Assembly (NCBI RefSeq): GCF_001262015.1
Contig: NZ_CP012075.1
Location: forward strand, 1,278,501-1,342,500
DNA: 64,000 nucleotides
Reading direction: 5' to 3'
Source of the DNA: Prevotella fusca JCM 17724
GTDB lineage: Bacteria > Bacteroidota > Bacteroidia > Bacteroidales > Bacteroidaceae
Shown here: piece after piece, positions 9,392 through 36,485 of the stretch
Numbering within the stretch: the stretch's first letter is position 1
How the letters are laid out: every line of letters starts with the position of its first letter
The notes under the pieces: generated by a model
Database searches by the model: none
What the model was told of the DNA's origin: nothing
Seen by the model: only the letters and a program-made list of their open reading frames with translations
Translations under genes and position numbers: made by a program

Positions 9392-10667
9392 TAGCGAAGA
9401 TTTCTGCAACGGAAAACCTTGGAGGGGCAATCGGCTATAACTTCAAAAGGTTGAAAAAGGAGAAGCAAGCATTCTCCTTGCCGCTGAATTGTATCAGGAC
9501 AAAGAGGGAACTTATACGATGGCAGAGGTGTTTGCCGATATGCAAGCACTTATCCCAGAGAAATGTCGAACAAAAAAGATGGTATTTCATTGCTCGCTCA
9601 ATCCGCACCCGGACGAGAAACTCTCCGATGAAACACTCACACAGATAGCCAAGGAGTATATGGAAGAACTTGGCTATGGCAAGCAACCCTATATTGTGTT
9701 CAAACACAACGACATCGCCCGTGAGCATATACACATCGTGTCGCTTCGAGTGGACGGAGAGGGAAAGAAAATCAACGACAGGTTTGAAAAGCGAAGGAGC
9801 AAGAAGATTACCGATGCGTTGGAAAGGAAGTATAACCTTATTCCGAGTTCAAAGGTTAGTGAGAAAGCGGTAACAGAAACGCCCAAGGTGGATACCACAA
9901 AAGGAAATATCAAAGAGCAGGTCGCAAGTGTTGTCCGCACGGTTCTGAAGCATTATCGCTTCTGTTCCTTGGGTGAATTGAATGCCATTCTTTCCGCATA
10001 CAATCTTGCAGTGGAAGAAGTGAAGACGGAGTTTCGGGGAAAGAAGTATGACGGACTGGTTTATGTTCCGACTAATGACAAGGGAGACAAAATAAGCACA
10101 CCCATCCATGCCTCGGACATTGGTCGTGGTATGGGCTATACAGCCGTGCAGAACAGGATGCAGAAGTCCAAACAAGCTATCAAGCCATTGATATCAATCA
10201 TAAGGTACAGGGTGTTACAAACAATGCGTACCTCTCCAAAGACAGAGGAAGAACTTCGGAAAAGACTGGAGGAACAAGGCTTGCGTGCGGTAATCCGAAA
10301 GAGCGAAAGCGGGCGCATCTATGGCATCACATTCATTGACGACAAGGAGGGCGTTGCGTTCAATGGCTCACGCTTGGGCAAGGGATATGCTGCCAATATA
10401 TTCAATGGTTATTTCTCCAATCCAACGGACAACCCATTCTTGGACGAAACGCTGTATGGCAATCCGTCTGTCCGTTTGGAACAATCAGCAACTGTCCAGC
10501 CTTTACAATCCAATGCAGAAGAAGGGGATAACCTTATCGATGAACTTATCGAGGATATGGCAGATAGTTCTTTCCTACCTACGGGCAATGATGATTGGAA
10601 GGAAGCGGCTTGGCAGCGTAAACTTCGCAGGCAAAGCAAAGTCAACCTCAGACAGAGGAAAAGATAG
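9388..10667 (+). pseudogene. mobB: MobB relaxase (MOBP-like) with an apparent one-base frameshift
   Basis: The gene opens at 9388 in frame with MIAKISATENLGGAIGYNFK, then the homologous sequence continues in the next frame as VEKGEASILLAAELYQDKEG and runs to 10667. Restoring one A in the AAAA run at 9445-9448 joins both parts into a relaxase of about 426 residues. The active-site histidines are seen in HNDIAREHIHIVSLR near residue 117. The product should nick oriT and stay bound to the transferred strand. If the deletion is real, only an internal start at 9489, lacking the N-terminal Tyr region, would be left, and transfer from this copy would fail. A sequencing error in a homopolymer is a serious alternative. 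Confidence 0.8.
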
Positions 10668-10750
10668 GTAAAGTATTTCAAACTTTGTTTGAACAACATT
10701 CAAATGCAATTCAAATAACGATAATACAACAAATATTAAGCAATACGATT

Positions 10751-12757
10751 ATGGCACAAGAAGATGATTTAAGGGCATTAGGTAAGGTCATGGACTTTAT
10801 GCGGGGTATATCGGTGATATTCCTCCTTATCAACTGTTATTGGTTCTGCTACGAGGCATTTCATGTCTGGGGGGTTACGCTTGGCATCATTGATAAAATT
10901 CTAATGAACTTCCAGCGCACCACGGGCTTGTTTTCATCCATCCTCTGGTCAAAACTCTTTTGTGTGGTATTTCTCGCTTTGTCCTGCCTTGGAACAAAGG
11001 GCGTGAAAGAGGAGAAAATCACTTGGCCAAAGATTTGGACGGTACTTTTCTCAGGCTTCGTCTTTTTCTTTCTCAACTGGTGGCTGCTGGCTTTGCCCAT
11101 CGGTAAGATCGGAGTAGCTTTGCTCTATATCTTCACGCTGTCCGTAGGCTATATCTGCCTGCTGATGGGTGGCGTATGGATGAGCCGACTGCTCAAAAAT
11201 AACTTGATGGACGATGTATTCAACACAGAAAACGAGAGTTTCATGCAGGAAACACGATTGATGGAGAATGAGTATTCCGTCAATCTCCCCACACGTTTTT
11301 ACTATAAGAAGAAATGGAATAAGGGCTGGATTAACGTAGTCAATCCCTTCCGCGCCTCGATGGTACTCGGTACACCGGGTTCGGGAAAGTCCTACGCCAT
11401 TGTGAACAACTACATCAAGCAGCAGATTGAGAAAGGCTTTGCGATGTATATCTACGATTATAAGTTCCCCGATTTGTCGGAGATAGCCTACAATCACCTG
11501 CTTCATCATTTGGATGCCTACAAGGTAAAACCGCAGTTCTTCGTGATAAATTTCGATGATCCGAGAAAGTCGCATCGGTGCAATCCTATCAATCCTGCCT
11601 TTATGACAGATATATCGGATGCCTACGAGAGTGCCTATACCATCATGCTCAACCTTAACCGCTCGTGGATACAGAAGCAGGGAGATTTCTTCGTGGAGTC
11701 GCCGATTATCTTGCTGGCAGCCATCATTTGGTTTCTGAAAATCTATGAGAACGGTAAGTATTGCACCTTTCCTCATGCCATTGAGTTCCTGAACCGCCCC
11801 TACGCACAGATATTCCCGATACTCACTTCCTACGATGAACTTGCCAACTACCTTTCGCCCTTTATGGACGCATGGGAGGGTGGAGCGCAGGACCAGTTGC
11901 AGGGACAGATAGCCAGTGCCAAAATACCACTGTCTCGTATGATAAGCCCTGCTCTCTATTGGGTGATGACGGGTGATGATTTCTCGCTCGACATCAACAA
12001 TCCTAACGAACCGAAAGTACTCGTGGTCGGCAACAATCCCGACCGCCAGAATATCTATTCAGCAGCACTTGGTCTGTATAACAGTCGTATCGTGAAGCTC
12101 ATCAACAAGAAGAAGCAACTCAAATCCTCTGTGATTATCGATGAGTTACCGACTATCTACTTTCGTGGACTTGACAACCTCATAGCTACTGCACGAAGCA
12201 ATAAAGTTGCTGTATGTTTGGGCTTTCAGGACTTCTCACAACTTACCCGTGATTATGGCGACAAAGAGAGCAAAGTAATACAGAACACTGTAGGTAACGT
12301 GTTCTCCGGGCAAGTGGTAGGAGAAACGGCTAAGACGCTTTCTGAGCGGTTTGGAAAGGTGCTCCAGCAACGGCAGTCTATGACCATCAACCGCAATGAT
12401 AAGTCCACGTCCATATCTACGCAGTTGGACAGTTTGATTCCTGCCAGTAAGATTAGCAACCTTACGCAAGGTATGTTTGTAGGAGCTGTGTCCGACAACT
12501 TTGATGAGCGAATTGAGCAGAAGATTTTCCACGCAGAGATTGTTGTGGATAGTGCCAAAGTTTCTGCCGAAATGAAAGCATACCAGCCCATCCCTGTAAT
12601 CAATATATTCCGAAACGAAAACAGCTCTGATAACCTCAAAGAGGCTATCGAAGCCAATTATAAGAGAATCAAACAGGATATACTTTTTCTCGTTGATTTT
12701 GAGATTGAACGAATCAAAAATGAGCCTCGGTTAAGATATTTATTAAAAGAATTATAG
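10751..12757 (+). CDS. mobC: MobC, VirD4-type coupling protein
   Basis: 668 residues from the ATG at 10751 (MAQEDDLRALGKVMDF); the open frame extends further upstream to 10685 but without family similarity. An N-terminal YWFCY motif lies in a membrane region (INCYWFCYEAF), followed by more helices up to about residue 145. The Walker A motif GTPGSGKSY is near residue 207, and the Walker B-like SSVIIDELPTIY is near residue 460. This is the coupling ATPase that hands the relaxase-DNA complex to the channel; in CTnDOT it is called MobC. It is intact and follows mobB by about 80 bases. Confidence 0.9.
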   Translation: MAQEDDLRALGKVMDFMRGISVIFLLINCYWFCYEAFHVWGVTLGIIDKILMNFQRTTGLFSSILWSKLFCVVFLALSCLGTKGVKEEKITWPKIWTVLFSGFVFFFLNWWLLALPIGKIGVALLYIFTLSVGYICLLMGGVWMSRLLKNNLMDDVFNTENESFMQETRLMENEYSVNLPTRFYYKKKWNKGWINVVNPFRASMVLGTPGSGKSYAIVNNYIKQQIEKGFAMYIYDYKFPDLSEIAYNHLLHHLDAYKVKPQFFVINFDDPRKSHRCNPINPAFMTDISDAYESAYTIMLNLNRSWIQKQGDFFVESPIILLAAIIWFLKIYENGKYCTFPHAIEFLNRPYAQIFPILTSYDELANYLSPFMDAWEGGAQDQLQGQIASAKIPLSRMISPALYWVMTGDDFSLDINNPNEPKVLVVGNNPDRQNIYSAALGLYNSRIVKLINKKKQLKSSVIIDELPTIYFRGLDNLIATARSNKVAVCLGFQDFSQLTRDYGDKESKVIQNTVGNVFSGQVVGETAKTLSERFGKVLQQRQSMTINRNDKSTSISTQLDSLIPASKISNLTQGMFVGAVSDNFDERIEQKIFHAEIVVDSAKVSAEMKAYQPIPVINIFRNENSSDNLKEAIEANYKRIKQDILFLVDFEIERIKNEPRLRYLLKEL

Positions 12758-13208: not shown

Positions 13209-14261
13209 TTACCAGTCTACCAACTCTGTACGACCATTTGCAGGAGGAACTCCATAAAGTCCTCTTTGGGCATTTATTTGGTTCTGTAGCTGCAAACGCT
13301 CTTCTTCTGTTAGGCGTCTGCCTGATTGATCATACACATCATCTAATTCAACATAGTTGTCTTTTCTTGCTATGTAAGGTAGATAATGAGAATTCAGGAA
13401 AGCCTTATCCTGTGTAGAAAGTGTATAATTTATAGCAATACCAAGTCCCGTTTTTGTAGTTATAGTATTTAATCCATTCTTTGAGAAATCTTTTGACGAT
13501 GCAAGGGTAATGGAGAACATATCAAACATTCCCATAGTAGTGTAGTTGCTCTTTATCTTATCAAAAGCCGACTTGCAATTGTCCTTGACATTGTTAAAAT
13601 CAATTTTCACGTAATTATCACGATCTGGTCGCTGTTGTTCATTGAACATTCCTGCAGCATTACAGAATGCATGCAAGAAGAATCGCTTTATCTCATTTGC
13701 GTCTGCATTCTCAAGAGTTGTTGGGACATTTATATATTGTTCACCACCTACTAAGCCGTAGTTACCGCTTCCTTCTCTACCAGAATCCATTCTGACAGCA
13801 ATGTTTGGAAGTTTTATGTGATATGGCTCATAGTATTCCGGATCCTCTATAGAGTTATAGAAACGTACATTTGTCTGTTCTTCCATTTCTGCTATAGCAA
13901 GAATAGCCCCATCTTTTATCTTCCCAGGGAGCTTAAGGAACTTCACTCTAAGCATTGTCCAATATTGTGCAGGATAAAATCCATATATGCCAATTGCTCT
14001 TGTAGAAACTGAAATACGTGGATCGTCAAACAATCCCCAACGTGTTGGAATTGTAGATGCAATGGTTGTTGTCCATGCATCCTTTTGTTGGACGTTACCA
14101 AAAGGATTTCCTGTTGATAGTAGCAACTTTTGCTGTTCTGTACTCAATGTTGCAACGTACGCAACATGTTTCTCACTGTGAGTTGTTTCTGTTTGTATAG
14201 CATCATCATTAGAGCATGATGCCACAGATAAAGCTAATACTGTTGTCAATAAAGAGTTCAT
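13209..14261 (-). CDS. Astacin-like lipoprotein with a destroyed zinc site (pseudoprotease)
   Basis: 350 residues. The start MNSLLTTVLALSVASC gives a lipobox with Cys16, and SNDD follows. The astacin (M12A) fold is visible: SIPTRWGLFDD at the start, AILAIAEMEEQTNVRFYN, then HAFCNAAGMFNEQQRPDRDN at about residues 197-216, and MFSITLASSKDFSKNG in the Met-turn region. The family motif is HExxHxxGxxHExxRxDRD. Here the catalytic Glu is Ala, and the second and third zinc His are Asn, each needing very few base changes, while neighbours are kept. The Met-turn is also changed. It can hardly be a zinc protease; a binding or immunity-type role is possible. It is last in the leftward RiPP-like operon. 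A TAA lies upstream in the same frame, so the start is well constrained. Confidence 0.8.
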   Translation of the reverse strand: MNSLLTTVLALSVASCSNDDAIQTETTHSEKHVAYVATLSTEQQKLLLSTGNPFGNVQQKDAWTTTIASTIPTRWGLFDDPRISVSTRAIGIYGFYPAQYWTMLRVKFLKLPGKIKDGAILAIAEMEEQTNVRFYNSIEDPEYYEPYHIKLPNIAVRMDSGREGSGNYGLVGGEQYINVPTTLENADANEIKRFFLHAFCNAAGMFNEQQRPDRDNYVKIDFNNVKDNCKSAFDKIKSNYTTMGMFDMFSITLASSKDFSKNGLNTITTKTGLGIAINYTLSTQDKAFLNSHYLPYIARKDNYVELDDVYDQSGRRLTEEERLQLQNQINAQRGLYGVPPANGRTELVDW

Positions 14262-17826: not shown

Positions 17827-18074
17827 TTAAAGTCCTATAGTTTTAATGCCAAATTTCTCAGCAGCTTCTTTTATTCCCAACATAGAAATACCTTCTGTAG
17901 TTGCATAACATATGCTAGACAAGAAAGCTTGGGTTTTAGGACTGACCCGAAAGCTTGGCTAAAGTTCTTACCGTAATATTTACATATCATCTGTAAGCAA
18001 GTGGTACCACACATCATAGAATCTGATTGTCTAAAAAAGGTAATCGCCTCATTGTAATCGTGTTTTCTCCTCAT
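17827..18074 (-). pseudogene. C39 leader-peptidase domain, frameshifted and without transporter
   Basis: From ATG 18074 the frame reads FFRQSDSMMCGTTCLQMICK then YYGKNFSQ, the C39 peptidase start with its catalytic Cys (MMCGTTC), as found at the N-terminus of bacteriocin ABC exporters. It then shifts frame. The continuation ICYATTEGISMLGIKEAAEK ... FGIKTIGL lies in another frame and stops at 17827. Between the two, a 10-bp direct repeat (GAAAGCTTGG at 17923-17932 and 17949-17958) bounds 26 extra bases; removing them restores one frame (NFSQAFLSSICYATTEG). The ATP-binding and membrane domains are absent. It overlaps the preceding receptor gene by 26 bases. Confidence 0.8.
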
Positions 18075-20409: not shown

Positions 20410-21397
20410 CTATAAAATATAATTACACATCTGTTGTGATTGTGGACATTTAGGATCTGGAAAATCAGGGTGCTTGTGCACTTTCATTATATCAACATAG
20501 CATATTAACAAAGTCGCACAGACCCCTTATATCCTTGATGTTTGAATTCTGTTTGCAAAGGACTGTTCTTAAAGAAATGTTTAAGTTATGCTTGGTACAC
20601 ATTTCAAACATAACTTTCAGTTTCTCAACATATTCGCTGCCGACCTTTATAATCTTCTTTAGTACTTTTGGAGATATAGAGTCTAAAGAAAACTGTACTT
20701 GGGGAATGCCTAATTGTTTCAACTTAACTATATCAGCTTCCTCCAATATCGACTTAGTTGAAATCAAATACCCAAAGCCTGCATACTGAGATAAAGATAT
20801 AATATCATACCAATCCTTTCTTGCAAAAATATCTCCTCCTGTTAAAGTCAGGTTTATTATGCCAGAATACGACAATTTCCTAAAAATATTAGCAATCTCA
20901 GAAGTTGACATTTCTCTTCTTATGTTTCGTTTAGCATAGCAGTAGATACAATTTGTATTGCATTTCTCTGTTACCATGAAATTCATTTCCAATGGTGTTT
21001 GTGGCCTACATTGTACATATGAATTCATCGGAGAAAAGTCTGTTACAGTAAAATATTGAGTATCATCTTTTTGATTTGATAATATTAATAGCTGTTCAGG
21101 AAAGACTAACATCTCCCCCATAAAAGGTACAGACTTACTCGGTTGCTCTACAATTTGAAATATGAAACTTTGTAGAGCAGTGGTATTAATATCGAGAGCT
21201 TTTCCTATTGCAGCAATAGATTGTTCGTATTTCTTTTTTCCAATATTGGTTATGACATATCCGAGAAATGGAGGAATTGTATATATTGTCTGATAATTAC
21301 TCATGTTTGAATTAACAAACATATTCTTTCTTACGATGTATGAGCAGGTTGCCTCACTTCTCAACGAATATGCTCTATTTAAAACAATGTATTTCAT
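20410..21397 (-). pseudogene. Radical SAM peptide maturase, C-terminal domain missing
   Basis: The open frame (21397-20492, start MKYIVLNRAYSLRSEA; an ATG at 21406 is also possible) has about 301 residues. An N-terminal part that could bind the leader (ILSNQKDDTQYFTVTD) is followed by the iron-sulfur motif CNTNCIYC near residues 142-149, then LTLTGGDIF and VQFSLDS. It stops at DFVNMLC where related peptide maturases normally continue with an SPASM or similar cysteine-rich region of 100 or more residues. In another frame just downstream (20410-20475) a plausible tail, PDFPDPKCPQSQQMCNYIL, remains before TAG. So an internal deletion with a frameshift is likely. It would install a ring or other link in the precursor encoded upstream; as it stands it is probably inactive. 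Confidence 0.75.
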
Positions 21398-21486
21398 TTC
21401 GTACAAAATTAGGTAATTAATAATCTATGCTAAAATTGAAATGAGCACTATCAGAAGTTGCATTTTATAATGGTTGGGGTTAAGAA

Positions 21487-21522
21487 GTCATGCCAAAACA
21501 ATATTTCAAGTAATGGCATGAC
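21487..21522 (-). repeat. Inverted repeat between precursor and maturase genes
   Basis: GTCATGCCA (21487-21495) and TGGCATGAC (21514-21522) form a 9-bp stem with an 18-base loop. It lies in the 200 bases between the precursor peptide gene and the radical SAM gene. A stem here could lower read-through and keep the precursor message in excess of the maturase, but no T-run follows, so a full terminator is not supported. Confidence 0.4.
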
Positions 21523-21596
21523 TTTGTTCATTGCCGTTGGAGCATCAAGTCTCAAGTAGAATTTTTTCCAATAGAGCATTAATCCTCCCCCGTTGT

Positions 21597-21764
21597 TTAG
21601 CAGTAAACAGTACCATCAGAGTCATCGGTATCAGATTCAATAGGAACCTCAATTATTACGACTTTTCCTGCACCACTGCTGCAATGACAATCTCTATATG
21701 CTTGACCTCCTTTTACTTCTTCCAACTCTGAAAGTAGCAAATTTTCAATAATTTCTTTATTCAT
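21597..21764 (-). CDS. RiPP precursor peptide with Gly-Gly leader
   Basis: A 55-residue gene read directly from the complementary strand: ATG at 21764, TAA at 21597-21599. It opens MNKEIIENLLLSELEEVKGG. The leader ends in ELEEVKGG (residues 13-20), the classic double-glycine cleavage site of C39 peptidases. The 35-residue core starts QAYRDCHCSSGAGKVV, has Cys26, Cys28 and Cys55, and carries an acidic Ser/Asp/Thr-rich stretch (residues 43-52, ESDTDDSDGT). It is followed on the same strand by a radical SAM enzyme, and a C39 peptidase fragment lies in the locus. The set resembles the GG-Bacteroidales type of natural-product precursor. A strong promoter stands upstream. The core function is unknown. 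Confidence 0.85.
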   Translation of the reverse strand: MNKEIIENLLLSELEEVKGGQAYRDCHCSSGAGKVVIIEVPIESDTDDSDGTVYC

Positions 21765-21925: not shown

Positions 21926-21956
21926 CAAATATACAAATCTATATTGTTTATAACAA
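21926..21956 (-). promoter_or_regulatory. Promoter of the RiPP operon
   Basis: On the minus strand TTG (21954-21956), 20 bases, then TATATTTG (21933-21926) is a full match to the Bacteroidetes promoter consensus. Transcription would start near 21920, leaving a leader of about 155 bases before the precursor ATG at 21764. Confidence 0.8.
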
Positions 21957-22044: not shown

Positions 22045-23277
22045 ATGAATAAAAAGATTATTTCATTAAAAGATTTCGAGATTACTCCAAATGAGAATAT
22101 AATCGAACGGAGCCAAAATTTCCAAAGCTACATAGACCAAATGGAGCAATTCGGCTGCAAGAGCTATTGGGTTATGGCAAAAACTGGAGTTGGAGCCAAG
22201 ATGCAAATCGAGGGCTATAACGGTGAAGTTTCAGCATACATTTCCAACGATTATTTAGGCATGTCGCAAAGTGCTGAAACCAAGGAAGCTGGCATAAATG
22301 CCGTCCTGAAATATGGTACAGGGGCAAGTGCCGCTCAAGCCATCGGTGGCTATTTAGACATCCATCAGCAGTTGGAACAAGGCATAGCGAAGTTTGTAGG
22401 ACAAGAAGAAGCCATCCTTTTTTCATCTGGCTTTGGTGCCAACGCAGGTCTGCTTCGTGCTATATTGGGAAAAAATGACATAGCCTACATCGATTCGTAT
22501 ATACATACCAGTGCCACGAGTGGTTTAATTGGAACCAATGTAAAACATATAGGACACAATGACATTGACTATCTTGACATGATCCTTGAACGGGAAACGG
22601 GAAAATATCAGACTCGATTGGTCATCATTGATGGGGTCTATTCTCAAAATGGAGATTTATCAAAACTTCCGGAGTATATTGCTGTCTGCAAGAAACACAA
22701 TTGTCTTCTTATGATGGATGATGCTCACGGCATTGGTGTTATGGGAGAAAACGGCAGAGGAACAGCTGACTATTATAATTGCTTGGGACAAGTAGATATT
22801 ATTACAGGAACTTTCAGTAAGTCTTTCGGATGTGTCGGTGGTTTTGTTGCTGCATCAACAAAACTAATTCAATATTTGAGATATTATGCCGACAGCAATG
22901 TCTTTTCCGCAGCGATGACTCCACAGGTTGCAGCATCTTCACTAAAGGCACTGGAACTCATACAGACACAACCAGAGATTCGCAAGAAGTTGTGGGCTAA
23001 TGTCAATTATCTGCGCAAACGACTGACAGAGGAAGGCTTTGATATAGGTTGTTCGGTATCAGCAATATTCCCTATTATGGTCAGGGACAATAGAAAAGTA
23101 TATGAAATAGCACGTGAATTACAAAAAAGATGTATCTTTGTAAGCGGTATCACATATCCTGCGGTAAGAACCAAGGAAGCACGGCTTAGAGTCAGTGTGT
23201 TGGCTTCACACGAAATAGTACAGTTGGAGCAATTGGTGACCGCTCTTGTGGAAATTAGAAAATCAACACCTTTTTAG
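22045..23277 (+). CDS. Alpha-oxoamine synthase (PLP-dependent; BioF/KBL/SPT family)
   Basis: 410 residues, usual length for the family. The PLP-binding lysine is in TFSKSFG near residue 258; MMDDAHGIGVMG and the Gly-rich GTGASAAQAIGG are also family motifs. Such enzymes condense an amino acid with an acyl-CoA: BioF (biotin), KBL (threonine catabolism), serine palmitoyltransferase (sphingolipids), or CqsA (signal molecules). The sequence does not decide between these; no other biotin or sphingolipid gene is nearby. It is followed at once by a TetR gene (TAG then ATG), so both are one unit. Being carried as ICE cargo suggests an accessory product, for instance a lipid or signal. Confidence 0.8.
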   Translation: MNKKIISLKDFEITPNENIIERSQNFQSYIDQMEQFGCKSYWVMAKTGVGAKMQIEGYNGEVSAYISNDYLGMSQSAETKEAGINAVLKYGTGASAAQAIGGYLDIHQQLEQGIAKFVGQEEAILFSSGFGANAGLLRAILGKNDIAYIDSYIHTSATSGLIGTNVKHIGHNDIDYLDMILERETGKYQTRLVIIDGVYSQNGDLSKLPEYIAVCKKHNCLLMMDDAHGIGVMGENGRGTADYYNCLGQVDIITGTFSKSFGCVGGFVAASTKLIQYLRYYADSNVFSAAMTPQVAASSLKALELIQTQPEIRKKLWANVNYLRKRLTEEGFDIGCSVSAIFPIMVRDNRKVYEIARELQKRCIFVSGITYPAVRTKEARLRVSVLASHEIVQLEQLVTALVEIRKSTPF

Positions 23278-23976
23278 ATGGCAGAAGAAGAAAATAAACC
23301 CAAAAGATACAGAAGGACAAACGTCGATATACAGGCAGACATTATCAAGGCAGCAGAAAGTCTGATCAAGAGAAAAGGCTTTGCATCAATGTTGGTGACA
23401 GAACTCATTAAAAAAGCCAGAATAGAGCCGCTTGTTTTCTATAACAGATATGACAATCTTAGCGAATTTTATGATGAATTCGTTAAGAGGTATGACTATT
23501 GGTTTAAGGATGTCCTCACCGGTGTTCAATTTCCGACAGATTCAGAATTGGGCTATATCGGTATTTTCAAGGATGTACATAAGTCACTTCAGGACAAATC
23601 CGTAATGTTGGAATTACTGCGTTGGGAAATAGCAGAAGGAAATGAAACCACGGTTCGTACAGCTATGCTCAGGGAAATGCACACATTACCTCTTGCCAAT
23701 TCCTATGAAGAGAAATTCAAAGATATTGACATATCAGCGATATCGGCATTGATTATAGGTGGTATATATTATCTCAATCTCCATCGCGACCGTTCAAAGT
23801 TTGCCGATATTGACTTGAATACGGAGCAAGGCAGAAAACGTATAGAAAAAGCCCTGGAGGAACTTGGACACATGGTATTCCACTGCCATGAAACAAATAA
23901 TTATAAGCAAGCCGTTGCTGAAAGAATGAAAGAAAACGGCATCAGCGATGAAATCATAAAAAAGTGTTTGGATTAA
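23278..23976 (+). CDS. TetR-family regulator
   Basis: 232 residues. The N-terminal helix-turn-helix is seen at about residues 17-62 (ADIIKAAESLIKRKGFASML, then VTELIKKARIEPLVFYNRY), where family members usually have a Tyr-Phe-rich turn (FYNRYDNLSEFYDEFV). The C-terminal ligand domain is unremarkable. It begins directly after the oxoamine synthase stop and probably senses the product or precursor of that enzyme or controls its promoter. A stem-loop with a T-run follows at 23994. Confidence 0.8.
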   Translation: MAEEENKPKRYRRTNVDIQADIIKAAESLIKRKGFASMLVTELIKKARIEPLVFYNRYDNLSEFYDEFVKRYDYWFKDVLTGVQFPTDSELGYIGIFKDVHKSLQDKSVMLELLRWEIAEGNETTVRTAMLREMHTLPLANSYEEKFKDIDISAISALIIGGIYYLNLHRDRSKFADIDLNTEQGRKRIEKALEELGHMVFHCHETNNYKQAVAERMKENGISDEIIKKCLD

Positions 23977-24224: not shown

Positions 24225-25628
24225 ATGGAATCAAATAACAATGACAATTATGTGCTGGTATTGGAAGACCGCACGGAGGTAAAGAACGAAAAGGAAGCAG
24301 GAAAACTCTCCGTAGTTTCTGGTATTGACGACAAGGGCAACCTTAAAACCACCGAGGCAATCGCTGCCAATCAAGCAGCATTCCTGAAGTTCAACAACAA
24401 GGACGGACTTCTGAAGAACTTCATGACCAACTTCCTCAAACAGTTTAATAACCCGACTCACTTCGGATTATACAAGGTATTGGCAGACAATGTGGAACAG
24501 GGCGTGGACAACCTGCGTACCATGCTGCAAAACCGCGAGAAGCCCGAAAGCAATCAGCAGCTGGCTGAGATGGGCATTCCTTTTGAGGACTATCTGCCCC
24601 AGCAGAAGAATGCTACTGCCATCGATGAGTCGAAGATTGATTGGAAGCAACTCGATAATCTCGGACTTACCCGTGAGAGATTGGAGCAGAGTGGAGAATT
24701 AGAAAAGATGCTCAATTGGCAGAAGAGCAATCTCATCACAATTACTGTTCCTATCGGCGACACCATCATCTATACTGAAGCACGCCTTGCGTTCCGCACG
24801 GACGATAGCGGCAATGTCGGTTTGGCAATTCATCCTTTGAGAAAAGAACCACAGCTTGACTTTCCCTATATGGGTTACAAGTTCTCTCCCGAAGAAAAGG
24901 AGCAACTCCTCACTACGGGCAATCTCGGTAAAACTATCGAAGTAACTCCCAAGAACGCTGAGCCTTTCTCTGCTTACGTCTCTATCGATCCGCAGACCAA
25001 TGAAATTATAGCCCTGCGTGCTGACCGTGTGAATATCCCCAAGGAAATCAAAGGTATTACCCTTTCCGATGCACAGTATAAAGACCTTGTAGAAGGTAAG
25101 GCTGTGAAGGTGGAAGGTATGACTGCCAAGAGTGGTAAGACCTTTGATGCAACTTTGCAAGTCAATGCCGAGCGAAAAGGCATTGAGTTTATCTTCGACA
25201 ATAAGCAAGGCTTGAAAGAGCGGCAACAACATAAACAACAGCAAGGTGTCCCACATAAGCTTTGCGGCTTAGAGTTATCAGAAAAACAGCGTGAAGCCTT
25301 GGATAGCGGTCGTACACTATATCTAAAGAATATGGTGGATAAACAAGGGCAACCTTTCAACGCATACGTTCGCATGGACAAGGAACAGAACCGCCCACGT
25401 TTTTACAAGTGGAATCCTGACAAGAAGCAGGAAACCGGCAAGGAAAAGGTCGTAGCTGTGGCGGAAGAACACAAAACACAGGTAGCCGTGAATAACCACG
25501 GCAAGACGAATGAAGCCACCAAGAACGTGAAAGAGCCCTTGAAAACTGGACAGACTCAACCTACTGCTGAGCAGAAGCAAAAGCAGGACGAGAAGAAACA
25601 AAAGAAGTCCCGTGGACGTAAGATGTAA
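24225..25628 (+). CDS. DUF4099/DUF3945-type ICE protein
   Basis: 467 residues. A DUF4099-like segment is seen at about residues 130-165 (IDWKQLDNLGLTRERLEQSG), then three copies of a DUF3945-like unit, each with a short helix and a strand: FSPEEKEQLLTTGNLGKTIE, LSDAQYKDLVEGKAVKVEGM and LSEKQREALDSGRTLYLKNM. The C-terminus is Lys/Gln-rich (KQKQDEKKQKKSRGRK). Such proteins are constantly found before topoisomerase III in the excision region of CTnDOT-like elements; their role is not known, DNA processing is likely. It ends 21 bases before topB. Confidence 0.75.
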   Translation: MESNNNDNYVLVLEDRTEVKNEKEAGKLSVVSGIDDKGNLKTTEAIAANQAAFLKFNNKDGLLKNFMTNFLKQFNNPTHFGLYKVLADNVEQGVDNLRTMLQNREKPESNQQLAEMGIPFEDYLPQQKNATAIDESKIDWKQLDNLGLTRERLEQSGELEKMLNWQKSNLITITVPIGDTIIYTEARLAFRTDDSGNVGLAIHPLRKEPQLDFPYMGYKFSPEEKEQLLTTGNLGKTIEVTPKNAEPFSAYVSIDPQTNEIIALRADRVNIPKEIKGITLSDAQYKDLVEGKAVKVEGMTAKSGKTFDATLQVNAERKGIEFIFDNKQGLKERQQHKQQQGVPHKLCGLELSEKQREALDSGRTLYLKNMVDKQGQPFNAYVRMDKEQNRPRFYKWNPDKKQETGKEKVVAVAEEHKTQVAVNNHGKTNEATKNVKEPLKTGQTQPTAEQKQKQDEKKQKKSRGRKM

Positions 25629-33594: not shown

Positions 33595-34901
33595 GTTTTA
33601 CATATTATCAAATAGAGGTAGTTCTTTGACATATTGATTGTAAATGACAGAGGTTCTCGGCTTAGTGATTAAATCTCTGAGGTGAGTTTTCTCCAAAGCA
33701 GAAACTCTTATCAGCGTTGCCACTTCCGTAATGGTGTATGGGCTTTTGTTGTCCGCCTTTATTCTTGCAACAAGCAGATAGGCGATGACTGCAACCCAGA
33801 GATGGATTCGGACTGCATTCTCGGAATACCCCCACAAGGTCTTCACGACAATGTTCTGCTTTATCCACTTGAAGAACACCTCTATGTCCCATCTGTGCCT
33901 ATACAGGACGGACACTTCCACTGCGCTGATCTCGAAGTTGTTAGTGATGAACACTATTTCTTCACACGTCTCCTCATCATAGTGGCAGACTGCCCTGAAA
34001 GGCTCAGGGTAAAGTGCATGAGTCTTTGGCTGAGTCAAGCGAATGGTAAAGTCGCCTCGAATACCATCCTCTCGGGAGAAGTCTTTTCTATGACCAATAA
34101 TCTCGTATTTCATGTTGTCCTTCGGTCTGGTAACCCAATAGGCTCCAGCCAAATGGAAGCGAAAGAACTCATCGAAGTCAACATAGGCCTTGTCCATCAT
34201 ATAGAAGGCAAGAGGCTCCGGCGCAGTCAGTTCAAGTTCGTTGCTGTCATGCCATCTGCCATCCGTGATGTGGATGTTTGCTGGAATGCTCCCGCGCAAG
34301 TCAAGCAGAGTGTGCATCTTCACCGCCCCCTTGTTGTATCTTCCTAAAGCCCATGTCGCAAGTTTGACACTTGTGGAGATGGTCGTGGAATCGAGGGAGT
34401 AAAGTACGTTGTCTATAGTGACATCTGGTATCGAGGTCCTTGTGTATAAAGGTCTTACCAGATTTATCATATAGATGCCAAACTCCTCATAGATGCGGTA
34501 ATCCCGATTGTCGTTAGCTCGGGAAAGTGATGACTGGTTGACCGTGTTGCCAAATCCAAGATGGTAGAGGATGTCCTTGTGGGCACCAAGACACAGGCAG
34601 ATGTCCCGTAGAGAATCACAACTCGTCAGCTGTCCAAACAAAAGGTGCAGAAGCTGGTTGTAACAAGTCAAATCCTTGACATGCCAGTCGCCACGGTACT
34701 TCTTCACGCACTTGTCGAACTGATAACGAGGTATGTACTTCACAACTTGTGAAAACACATATCGACCGACGTTCATAACAATGCAGTTTTGGTTGCAAAG
34801 TTACGCTGTCATTTTCAAATCAAAAAATCAAAGAACGATCTGAAACCCTTATTAATAAAGGGATATATGAAGTTTAATTTAAAATTATTGCATCACTAGT
34901 A
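33567..34901 (-). mobile_element. IS4-family insertion sequence, 1335 bp
   Basis: The ends are imperfect inverted repeats matching at 15 of 20 positions (TAGTACTGATGCGATAAAAT on the left and the complement of the right end, TACTAGTGATGCAATAATTT). A 9-bp direct repeat TACTGACAT flanks the element. Removing the element plus one copy of the repeat restores the reading frame of the host gene. The insertion is thus recent enough for both repeats and the split gene to be unchanged. Confidence 0.9.
33598..34776 (-). CDS. IS4-family transposase
   Basis: 392 residues. The N-terminal DUF4372-type domain (VFSQVVKYIPRYQFDKCVKK) is followed by a DDE catalytic core: first Asp in VLYSLDSTTIS, second Asp in FYMMDKAYVDFDEF, and the Glu in the IS4 signature YRHRWDIEVFFKWIK (Tyr-2-Arg-3-Glu-6-Lys pattern is complete). 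It is intact and probably functional. It is transcribed against the host gene. Confidence 0.93.
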   Translation of the reverse strand: MNVGRYVFSQVVKYIPRYQFDKCVKKYRGDWHVKDLTCYNQLLHLLFGQLTSCDSLRDICLCLGAHKDILYHLGFGNTVNQSSLSRANDNRDYRIYEEFGIYMINLVRPLYTRTSIPDVTIDNVLYSLDSTTISTSVKLATWALGRYNKGAVKMHTLLDLRGSIPANIHITDGRWHDSNELELTAPEPLAFYMMDKAYVDFDEFFRFHLAGAYWVTRPKDNMKYEIIGHRKDFSREDGIRGDFTIRLTQPKTHALYPEPFRAVCHYDEETCEEIVFITNNFEISAVEVSVLYRHRWDIEVFFKWIKQNIVVKTLWGYSENAVRIHLWVAVIAYLLVARIKADNKSPYTITEVATLIRVSALEKTHLRDLITKPRTSVIYNQYVKELPLFDNM

Positions 34902-35552: not shown

Positions 35553-36485
35553 TTATTTCCACAAAGAGTATTCTCTCCATTTTTCAGGAAAGCCCATGTC
35601 TTTCAAAACTACCAATTTGGGAGATTTGTCCAATAGGGTGAGCAAACTCTTTCTAAATGAGCTATCAGGACTGATTATTTGCTGCAAATACAAAATTACA
35701 GATAAGTAGGCAAACAACTTATTGTCCCTTATCGTTGCAGCTTCTTGCTTTGACAAGAAAGGATAATTCGTTCTATAAGGAAACTTCAAGCCTATTGTAA
35801 AGCGGCGATTCCATACACGACTATGATGGGCACAAGTATTGCGTAAAGACGATAAACCATGCATCCAATTCTTCAGAATATCGACATTGTATAGTCCCAA
35901 ATCCCTGCAAATTGTTTTACTAGAAGGGTTATTCTTGTCCAAAGCAAAAAACAACTTACTCAATGTTCCCATAGAAACAACCTCTAAGGTCATCCACGCT
36001 GGCGGAAAAGCAGGTTCGCTATATTTTTGATAATAATGAGCTATAAAATCCTCATTACTTCGCTTGACCTCTTTCATTAAATCCCCTACAACAGGGTGTG
36101 TCAATGCGATAAACTTATCGTGGTGAAAGTATAACTTATGATTGAGAAACCAAAAGGCGTCATTTTCATCAACGGAATAAGTTAAGGCGATTCTTGTTCT
36201 TAATGCCACCTCGATTTTTTCAATGGCATTGAAGATTAAAGAGCGTAAACGCCTATCAAAACAATAAAGGTCTATCACATCTTGAAAAGAAATGTCCTTT
36301 CTCAGAAATTCGTGATTAGCATCTTTCCCATTATTTTGAAAAGGGTATGTGTATGCTCGTAATCTATAATAACTTATGTTATAAAGATATTGGGACGCAA
36401 GTTTTTCGTCTCCAATATTAAGTCCTCGATCGCATAGCTTTTTAACCTGCTCAGATGTGTCTATGGGCTTCTTTTCGTACCTCAT
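35553..36485 (-). CDS. AbiF/AbiD-type abortive infection protein (Abi_2 family)
   Basis: 310 residues, normal for Abi_2 proteins. The N-terminus KKPIDTSEQVKKLCDRGLNI, and LYNISYYRLRAYTYPF, FDRRLRSLIFNAIEKIEVAL are family hallmarks. A HEPN-like RNase motif Arg-x4-His is present in SLRNTCAHHSRVWNR near residue 218. Members act as phage-triggered RNases leading to growth arrest. The gene stands alone, facing the ICE helicase, with its own promoter and a structured leader (36505-36547). It is typical defence cargo of a mobile element. Target and trigger are unknown. Confidence 0.88.
   Translation of the reverse strand: MRYEKKPIDTSEQVKKLCDRGLNIGDEKLASQYLYNISYYRLRAYTYPFQNNGKDANHEFLRKDISFQDVIDLYCFDRRLRSLIFNAIEKIEVALRTRIALTYSVDENDAFWFLNHKLYFHHDKFIALTHPVVGDLMKEVKRSNEDFIAHYYQKYSEPAFPPAWMTLEVVSMGTLSKLFFALDKNNPSSKTICRDLGLYNVDILKNWMHGLSSLRNTCAHHSRVWNRRFTIGLKFPYRTNYPFLSKQEAATIRDNKLFAYLSVILYLQQIISPDSSFRKSLLTLLDKSPKLVVLKDMGFPEKWREYSLWK

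Follow-up and report, generated by a model that had tools for sequence, protein, structure and literature searches.

Introduction

Gene clusters in which C39 exporters are consistently paired with precursor peptides carrying a double-glycine (GG) motif are described for Bacteroidales in the main text of PMC10352776, where radical S-adenosylmethionine (SAM) proteins are the commonest enzymes of such clusters and some include a gene for an outer-membrane protein (OMP); that main text never uses the word 'conjugative'. Among radical SAM peptide maturases, PapB is reported to form Cys-Asp/Glu thioethers in repeated Cys-X3-Asp/Glu motifs (PMC9413430). Here we analyse a 64,000-nucleotide (nt) stretch of the Prevotella fusca JCM 17724 genome (contig NZ_CP012075.1, positions 1,278,501 to 1,342,500; hereafter the window), in which a first-pass annotation had proposed a 55-amino-acid (aa) precursor of a ribosomally synthesized and post-translationally modified peptide (RiPP) on an integrative and conjugative element (ICE). 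Judged from its sequence and relatives, this open reading frame (ORF) is a real precursor gene of a RiPP-type GG-leader peptide, and the peptide operon to which it belongs, conserved elsewhere, has very probably decayed in this copy. With its enzyme and exporter broken, the window copy is most probably a disappearing relic carried on a conjugative element, whereas the family itself, apparently unnamed and undescribed, comprises cysteine-containing modified peptides of other Bacteroidales.

A precursor family with a conserved core unit

The minus-strand ORF at 21597-21764 translates into the leader MNKEIIENLLLSELEEVKGG and the 35-residue core QAYRDCHCSSGAGKVVIIEVPIESDTDDSDGTVYC, and its 55 codons, GG leader and Cys26, Cys28 and Cys55 can be read directly from the DNA as first annotated. 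Both G19 and G20 are invariant in 13/13 aligned precursors. A protein search with this single sequence returned 19 relatives, ten of them full length (P0002-P0011, 69-98% identity), including two without a source label that may be the window's own cluster (P0002, P0003); in these closest copies Cys26, Cys28 and Cys55 are not invariant. In the remaining nine (P0012-P0020) the leader runs into sequence matching an interior segment of the radical SAM protein, and we read these fusions as probable products of deletion. P0016, one of these nine, is present in 81 contigs, and this dead form of the cassette is therefore widespread; in the family genomes it had matches in only 2 of 399 (G000 and G092), solely to its two halves apart. 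The precursor itself was matched in 2 of 398 genus genomes, the window's own and G092, and a scan of viral contigs gave no match. A Pfam search with the peptide returned nothing, and the sole NCBIfam offering was a lanthipeptide leader model below threshold (14.9 versus 22 bits).

A profile search extended the family to 77 proteins, for which the signature is a GG leader followed by the core unit C-x-C-x2-G(0/1)-[GA]-A-x-[EQ]. With the window group (P0001-P0011) and the fusions (P0012-P0020 and P0190) set aside, 56 of the remaining 57 rows carry the looser form C-x-C-x2-G(0/1)-[GA]-A-x-x, the one miss being P0185. These 57 rows hold 62 units, of which 40 close with E, 18 with Q, three with T and one (in P0183) with S, the T endings resulting from register ambiguity in CHCSSGAAET (P0168, P0169, P0178). 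The closing E/Q stands six residues after the second Cys, or seven in the GGA form, and three tandem units occur in L029, L031 and P0189. Within the window group the unit is kept in 7/11 members, with four E and three K endings (window, P0002, P0007), and P0009, P0010 and P0011 have K in the same column with the CxC (Cys-x-Cys) lost. Two members carry the source label Lachnospiraceae (L033, P0135); a binning error is possible, since both come from metagenome assemblies. No description of a C-x-C-x2-G-A-x-[EQ] unit was found in the literature searched, subscription journals and supplements being outside its scope.

Conserved position ahead of a radical SAM maturase

A scan with an alignment of maturases identified 72 loci; a contig scan with the truncated radical SAM ORF of the window alone identified no relative. 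Thirteen loci were counted (L013, on the same contig as L027, L026, L028-L035, the disrupted L015 and L016, and G092), and a precursor was scored as an ORF of 35-130 aa with GG and then CxC, lying within 400 bases upstream of the radical SAM gene or in the gene's first 60. The first-pass annotation had staked its proposal on homologous small ORFs beside radical SAM genes elsewhere, and such an ORF stands directly upstream of the related gene in ten of the 13 loci, against a background for those ten of 4 in 3000 dinucleotide shuffles and 6 in 3340 random windows of the fetched loci. All three misses have a disrupted radical SAM gene: L015 and L016 (36 and 38% identical to the window's) lack both a CxC unit and a GG motif of the tested form in the ~1.9 kb upstream, and G092 is an eleventh locus with a homologous precursor upstream, from which the first Cys and hence the CxC is lost. 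A chance reading frame, for which nothing but the shortness of the ORF speaks, is scarcely conceivable given the ten full-length relatives, the 77 proteins of the profile and the kept position ahead of the radical SAM gene.

Intact relatives share the order precursor, radical SAM/SPASM maturase, TonB-receptor-like barrel and C39 exporter. Complete operons of this kind, which the first-pass annotation had advised seeking in other Bacteroidales, were found. In the family genomes the radical SAM ORF of the window had matches in 11 of 301 at E<=1e-20, its own included, and no further match was detected in its own genome at E<=0.001.

Decay of the window operon

A radical SAM maturase had been annotated downstream of the precursor, and this held in part. 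The ORF is present, retains the motif CX3CX2C (as CNTNCIYC) and matches Pfam Radical_SAM at 1.3e-18, but it is not whole. Its best relative, P0022, has 484 residues including a SPASM domain and is 98% identical over 299; the P0022 cluster comprises 74 member sequences from 46 contigs, with one source named Prevotella nigrescens. The window retains P0022 residues 1-299, plus residues 454-484 out of frame, leaving an ORF of 301 aa without SPASM. In an alignment of 37 maturases, of which the 36 others were picked mostly for full length, the three radical SAM Cys are conserved in all 37 rows, the window included, whereas six of seven SPASM Cys are found in all 36 other rows and are absent from the window ORF, which matches the seventh column only with its last residue. 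When P0022 was searched in 60 relatives at E<=1e-60, the sole match was the window's own broken copy.

The C39 peptidase remnant and the two outer-membrane barrels reported earlier were recovered, the latter as two OMP_b-brl_3 proteins, the first of which has a 68% relative directly after the radical SAM gene in L026. The exporter itself, intact in L013 and L035, is represented in the window by two scraps of ~30 codons. With the SPASM half lost and the C39 exporter reduced to scraps, a working locus in the window is not supported, and the earlier description as a peptide natural-product locus is true of the relatives only. For the same reason, the window would yield at most an unmodified 35-mer, exported only if an intact C39 exporter elsewhere in the genome accepted it.

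Such an exporter exists. A second GG-peptide cassette on another contig of the same genome (L178, G000:C1:802500-820500) contains a 59-aa GG peptide, a radical SAM frame of 347 aa with no SPASM hit followed by an ISL3-type transposase, a barrel, an intact C39 exporter of 729 aa, which is the genome's one other C39 exporter, and a 159-aa protein. The L178 exporter could in principle cut the orphan leader of the window. As judged by eye, this cassette adjoins recombinase-like ORFs. Together with the intact CX3CX2C motif and precursor frame, the presence of this exporter would be consistent with a locus that still works, the truncated radical SAM protein modifying the peptide without SPASM and the distant exporter releasing it. 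We regard this as very improbable, as SPASM Cys are kept in 36/36 other rows of the alignment (chosen mostly for full length), the C-terminal maturase scrap is out of frame, and the E/Q of the unit is K here.

The copy in G092, a second genome of the genus, carries the window's precursor, altered at Cys26 and Cys55; its radical SAM gene and first exporter are also broken, its OMP_B is 98% identical to the window's, and no OMP_A match was found at the corresponding place. Between window and G092, nonsynonymous (dN) and synonymous (dS) divergence were 0.021 and 0.188 in the leader and 0.146 and 0.151 in the core, and between window and L026 they were 0.165 and 0.560 in the leader and 0.191 and 0.615 in the first 63 nt of the core. 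The core values for the two broken copies would fit relaxed selection, on too few sites to carry weight.

Both barrel frames of the window are open while the radical SAM gene and exporter are broken, and OMP_B has been kept in G092 in the same circumstances. This pattern might reveal a resistant non-producer, in which the barrels are kept for immunity to, or uptake of, the peptide released by neighbours with intact operons. We consider this unlikely, though less so than the other alternatives: OMP_A has no match at that place in G092, decay may just not have reached the barrel genes so far, and a role in immunity is itself putative.

Several points weigh against reading the window locus as a decayed copy of a conserved operon. 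Loci were counted if their maturase shared at least 34% identity with P0022 or with that of the window, a threshold chosen when the list was already in view, and the ten positive loci are not all independent because the precursors of L029, L030 and L031 are similar. The profile was built from CxC precursors and thus favours CxC hits, and many of the 57 rows are near-duplicates. The precursor and both barrels still have open frames, perhaps a sign that some function is retained, and units ending in K also occur in the metagenome copies P0002 and P0007, so K need not mean decay. Finally, the operon, the conservation of its unit, the decay and the ICE slot are apparent from sequence, whereas the peptide product is predicted and a thioether is one candidate among radical SAM chemistries.

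Upstream of the precursor, the consensus promoter of the first-pass annotation was recovered as a TAnnTTTG box, which we take to be the Bacteroides-type -7 consensus. In this window, matches to it number about 0.14 per 300 bases on one strand, and a box lies within 300 nt upstream of three of five other precursors examined (L035, L028, L033; none at L026 or L013). A hairpin occupies the 199-nt gap before the radical SAM gene, and none of 200 shuffles was equally stable.

A cargo slot in a conjugative element

The claim that the locus is conjugative cargo was borne out by a relaxase, a TraG/TrwB-type coupling protein, a topoisomerase and a DUF4099/DUF3945 protein encoded in the window (Table 1). 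In the ICE family concerned, the coupling-protein and DUF4099/DUF3945 genes flank a slot of variable content, which the peptide locus occupies in the window. With the DUF4099/DUF3945 protein as query, 32 of the 398 genus genomes, its own included, gave a match at E<=1e-100; 40 stretches were fetched, both slot edges were present in 23, and six of these 23 contained a full-length C39 exporter. With two further closed slots that have one (L020 in G299, and L014 with L165 in G092), a full C39 exporter is found in 8 of 25 closed slots outside the window and a remnant in the window. Several of the 25 appear to be related, hence not independent. 'Closed' is approximate for L128, L132, L137 and L153, as their coupling-protein edge is a C-terminal fragment only.

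The slots carry varied contents, other GG-peptide cassettes among them. Pfam confirmed radical SAM proteins in L166, L014, L158, L153 (two), L134 and L133, and L128 combines a C39 exporter with a DUF6734 protein. The same radical SAM protein, 100% identical over 474 aa, lies in the ICE slot of two species' genomes (L020 in G299 and L166 in G458), which suggests recent transfer. The acyltransferase gene divergent from the precursor recurs in other slots (7/26 with the window counted), whether or not a full C39 exporter is present.

Table 1. Coordinates of features discussed, numbered from the first nucleotide of the window
Feature	Position	Strand	Remarks
Relaxase (MobA/VirD2-like, PF03432)	9489..10667	+	ICE backbone
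TraG/TrwB-type coupling protein	10685..12757	+	one slot edge
Second OMP_b-brl_3 barrel (OMP_B), 769 aa	15362..17671	-	frame intact
C39 exporter scrap	17833..17922	-	residues 36-65 of L013 exporter, separate match
C39 exporter scrap	17958..18047	-	residues 3-32 of L013 exporter
TonB-receptor-like outer-membrane barrel (OMP_b-brl_3), 783 aa	18049..20400	-	frame intact
Maturase C-terminus scrap, out of frame	20413..20505	-	P0022 residues 454-484, 96%
Truncated radical SAM ORF	20492..21397	-	from ATG matching relatives; without SPASM half
Hairpin between precursor and radical SAM gene	21485..21524	-	11-bp stem AAGUCAUGCCA/UGGCAUGACUU; z -3.3
GG-leader precursor coding sequence	21597..21764	-	stop included
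Core unit CHCSSGAGK	21663..21689	-	C-x-C-x2-G-A-x-[EQ] unit, K replacing E/Q
Precursor leader, residues 1-20	21705..21764	-	end LSELEEVKGG; G19 and G20 invariant in 13 aligned precursors
-7 box TAnnTTTG, TATATTTG	21926..21933	-	162 nt upstream of ATG
Second TAnnTTTG match, TAGATTTG	21934-21941	-	
BioF/Kbl-family pyridoxal-phosphate acyltransferase	22045..23277	+	divergent from precursor
TetR-type regulator after acyltransferase	23278..23976	+	TetR_N and AcuR models both below cut-off
DUF4099/DUF3945 protein	24225..25628	+	other slot edge

Other genes were observed in the window. An astacin-type metalloprotease (13209-14261) has a 48% relative beside the coupling-protein gene in G092 too. A DDE transposase ORF (33598-34776) lies four bases past a large helicase ORF on the opposite strand, followed by an Abi_2-type protein (35553-36485).

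Predicted chemistry and ecological role

In intact relatives, the leader would be bound by the N-terminus of the radical SAM enzyme, a putative relative of RiPP recognition elements, and the radical SAM/SPASM core would then modify the C-x-C-x2-G-A-x-[EQ] unit, most likely through one or more Cys thioether links. Such a link, predicted from the unit, might go to an alpha carbon or a non-alpha one, as in sactipeptides or ranthipeptides. By analogy with known maturases, thioether chemistry within the CxC unit is the form that we favour; Glu/Gln is one candidate acceptor, perhaps the right one, but we would sooner expect another. The C39 ABC exporter would cut after GG and export the core, and at the outer membrane the barrel may let the peptide out, serve as its receptor or confer immunity.

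A pair of Cys in CxC arrangement is a common metal ligand, and the barrels have TonB-receptor-like domains, with Plug domains in L035. These features would also be consistent with a secreted metal carrier that binds metal at the CxC unit and is retaken by the barrel. This explanation appears doubtful, since it leaves the conserved G-A-x-[EQ] part unexplained and plain thiolate binding needs no radical SAM maturase.

More speculatively, the CxC-GA-[EQ] peptides may form an undescribed radical SAM RiPP class, in which a 9- or 10-residue unit, present once or three times, has Cys cross-linked to the closing Glu/Gln or to Gly/Ala, and a Prevotella-type ICE family may have a dedicated slot between coupling-protein and DUF3945 genes for swapping such cassettes. 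The two proposals together are possible and tentatively put forward, the odds being against their joint truth. If both were true, conjugation would spread interchangeable peptide weapons or signals, leaving resistant relics like the window copy. Several different peptide cassettes in one ICE slot would allow a test of whether such elements carry exchangeable kits for peptide warfare or signalling. The short, strict and sometimes tandem unit and its distinct maturase clade offer a substrate-enzyme pair with which new radical SAM chemistry could be sought among the Bacteroidales that live in humans and animals; the window copy, a relic, matters here mainly as a pointer.

Comparison with known systems

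The locus shares with radical SAM RiPPs in general the CX3CX2C motif and a homologous precursor beside the maturase elsewhere. It resembles the NCBIfam family TIGR04149 (GG-Bacteroidales), whose short precursors from Bacteroidales likewise have a GG leader and stand next to a radical SAM gene, and differs from those precursors in the CxC unit of its core. The membership in this family suggested at first did not hold: TIGR04149 gave the window peptide no match at E<=10 (cut-off 25 bits) and scored 16.4 bits for L013, 15.1 for L026 and none at E<=1 for L035. The same cut-off was passed by 3 of 8 tested slot peptides (L128, L133, L134).

No NCBIfam radical SAM equivalog reached its cut-off among the best 25 of 51 matches of the window ORF or the best 25 of 41 of P0022, for which the highest equivalog score was 70.2 versus 650 bits, nor was TIGR04148 among these matches; the only model passed among them was the SPASM domain (28.2 versus 27 bits). 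Among the matches listed by Foldseek and VIA-align, the P0022 structural model matches SuiB and SkfB over almost its whole length, and CteB (5why/5wgg; PMC8326336) over its radical SAM/SPASM part. The whole-model alignment with SuiB comprises 390 residues over 4-475, hence some N-terminal ones. Identity with these three enzymes is only 12-18%, and the precursors differ.

The clusters of PMC10352776 can be compared with the window family by their description there, and identity with one of them is possible. Like the PapB ranthipeptides, as presented in PMC9413430, the family has repeated Cys-to-acidic units in its core; unlike their Cys-X3-Asp/Glu units, it combines CxC with an E/Q six or seven residues on, a unit from which the linkage here is predicted.
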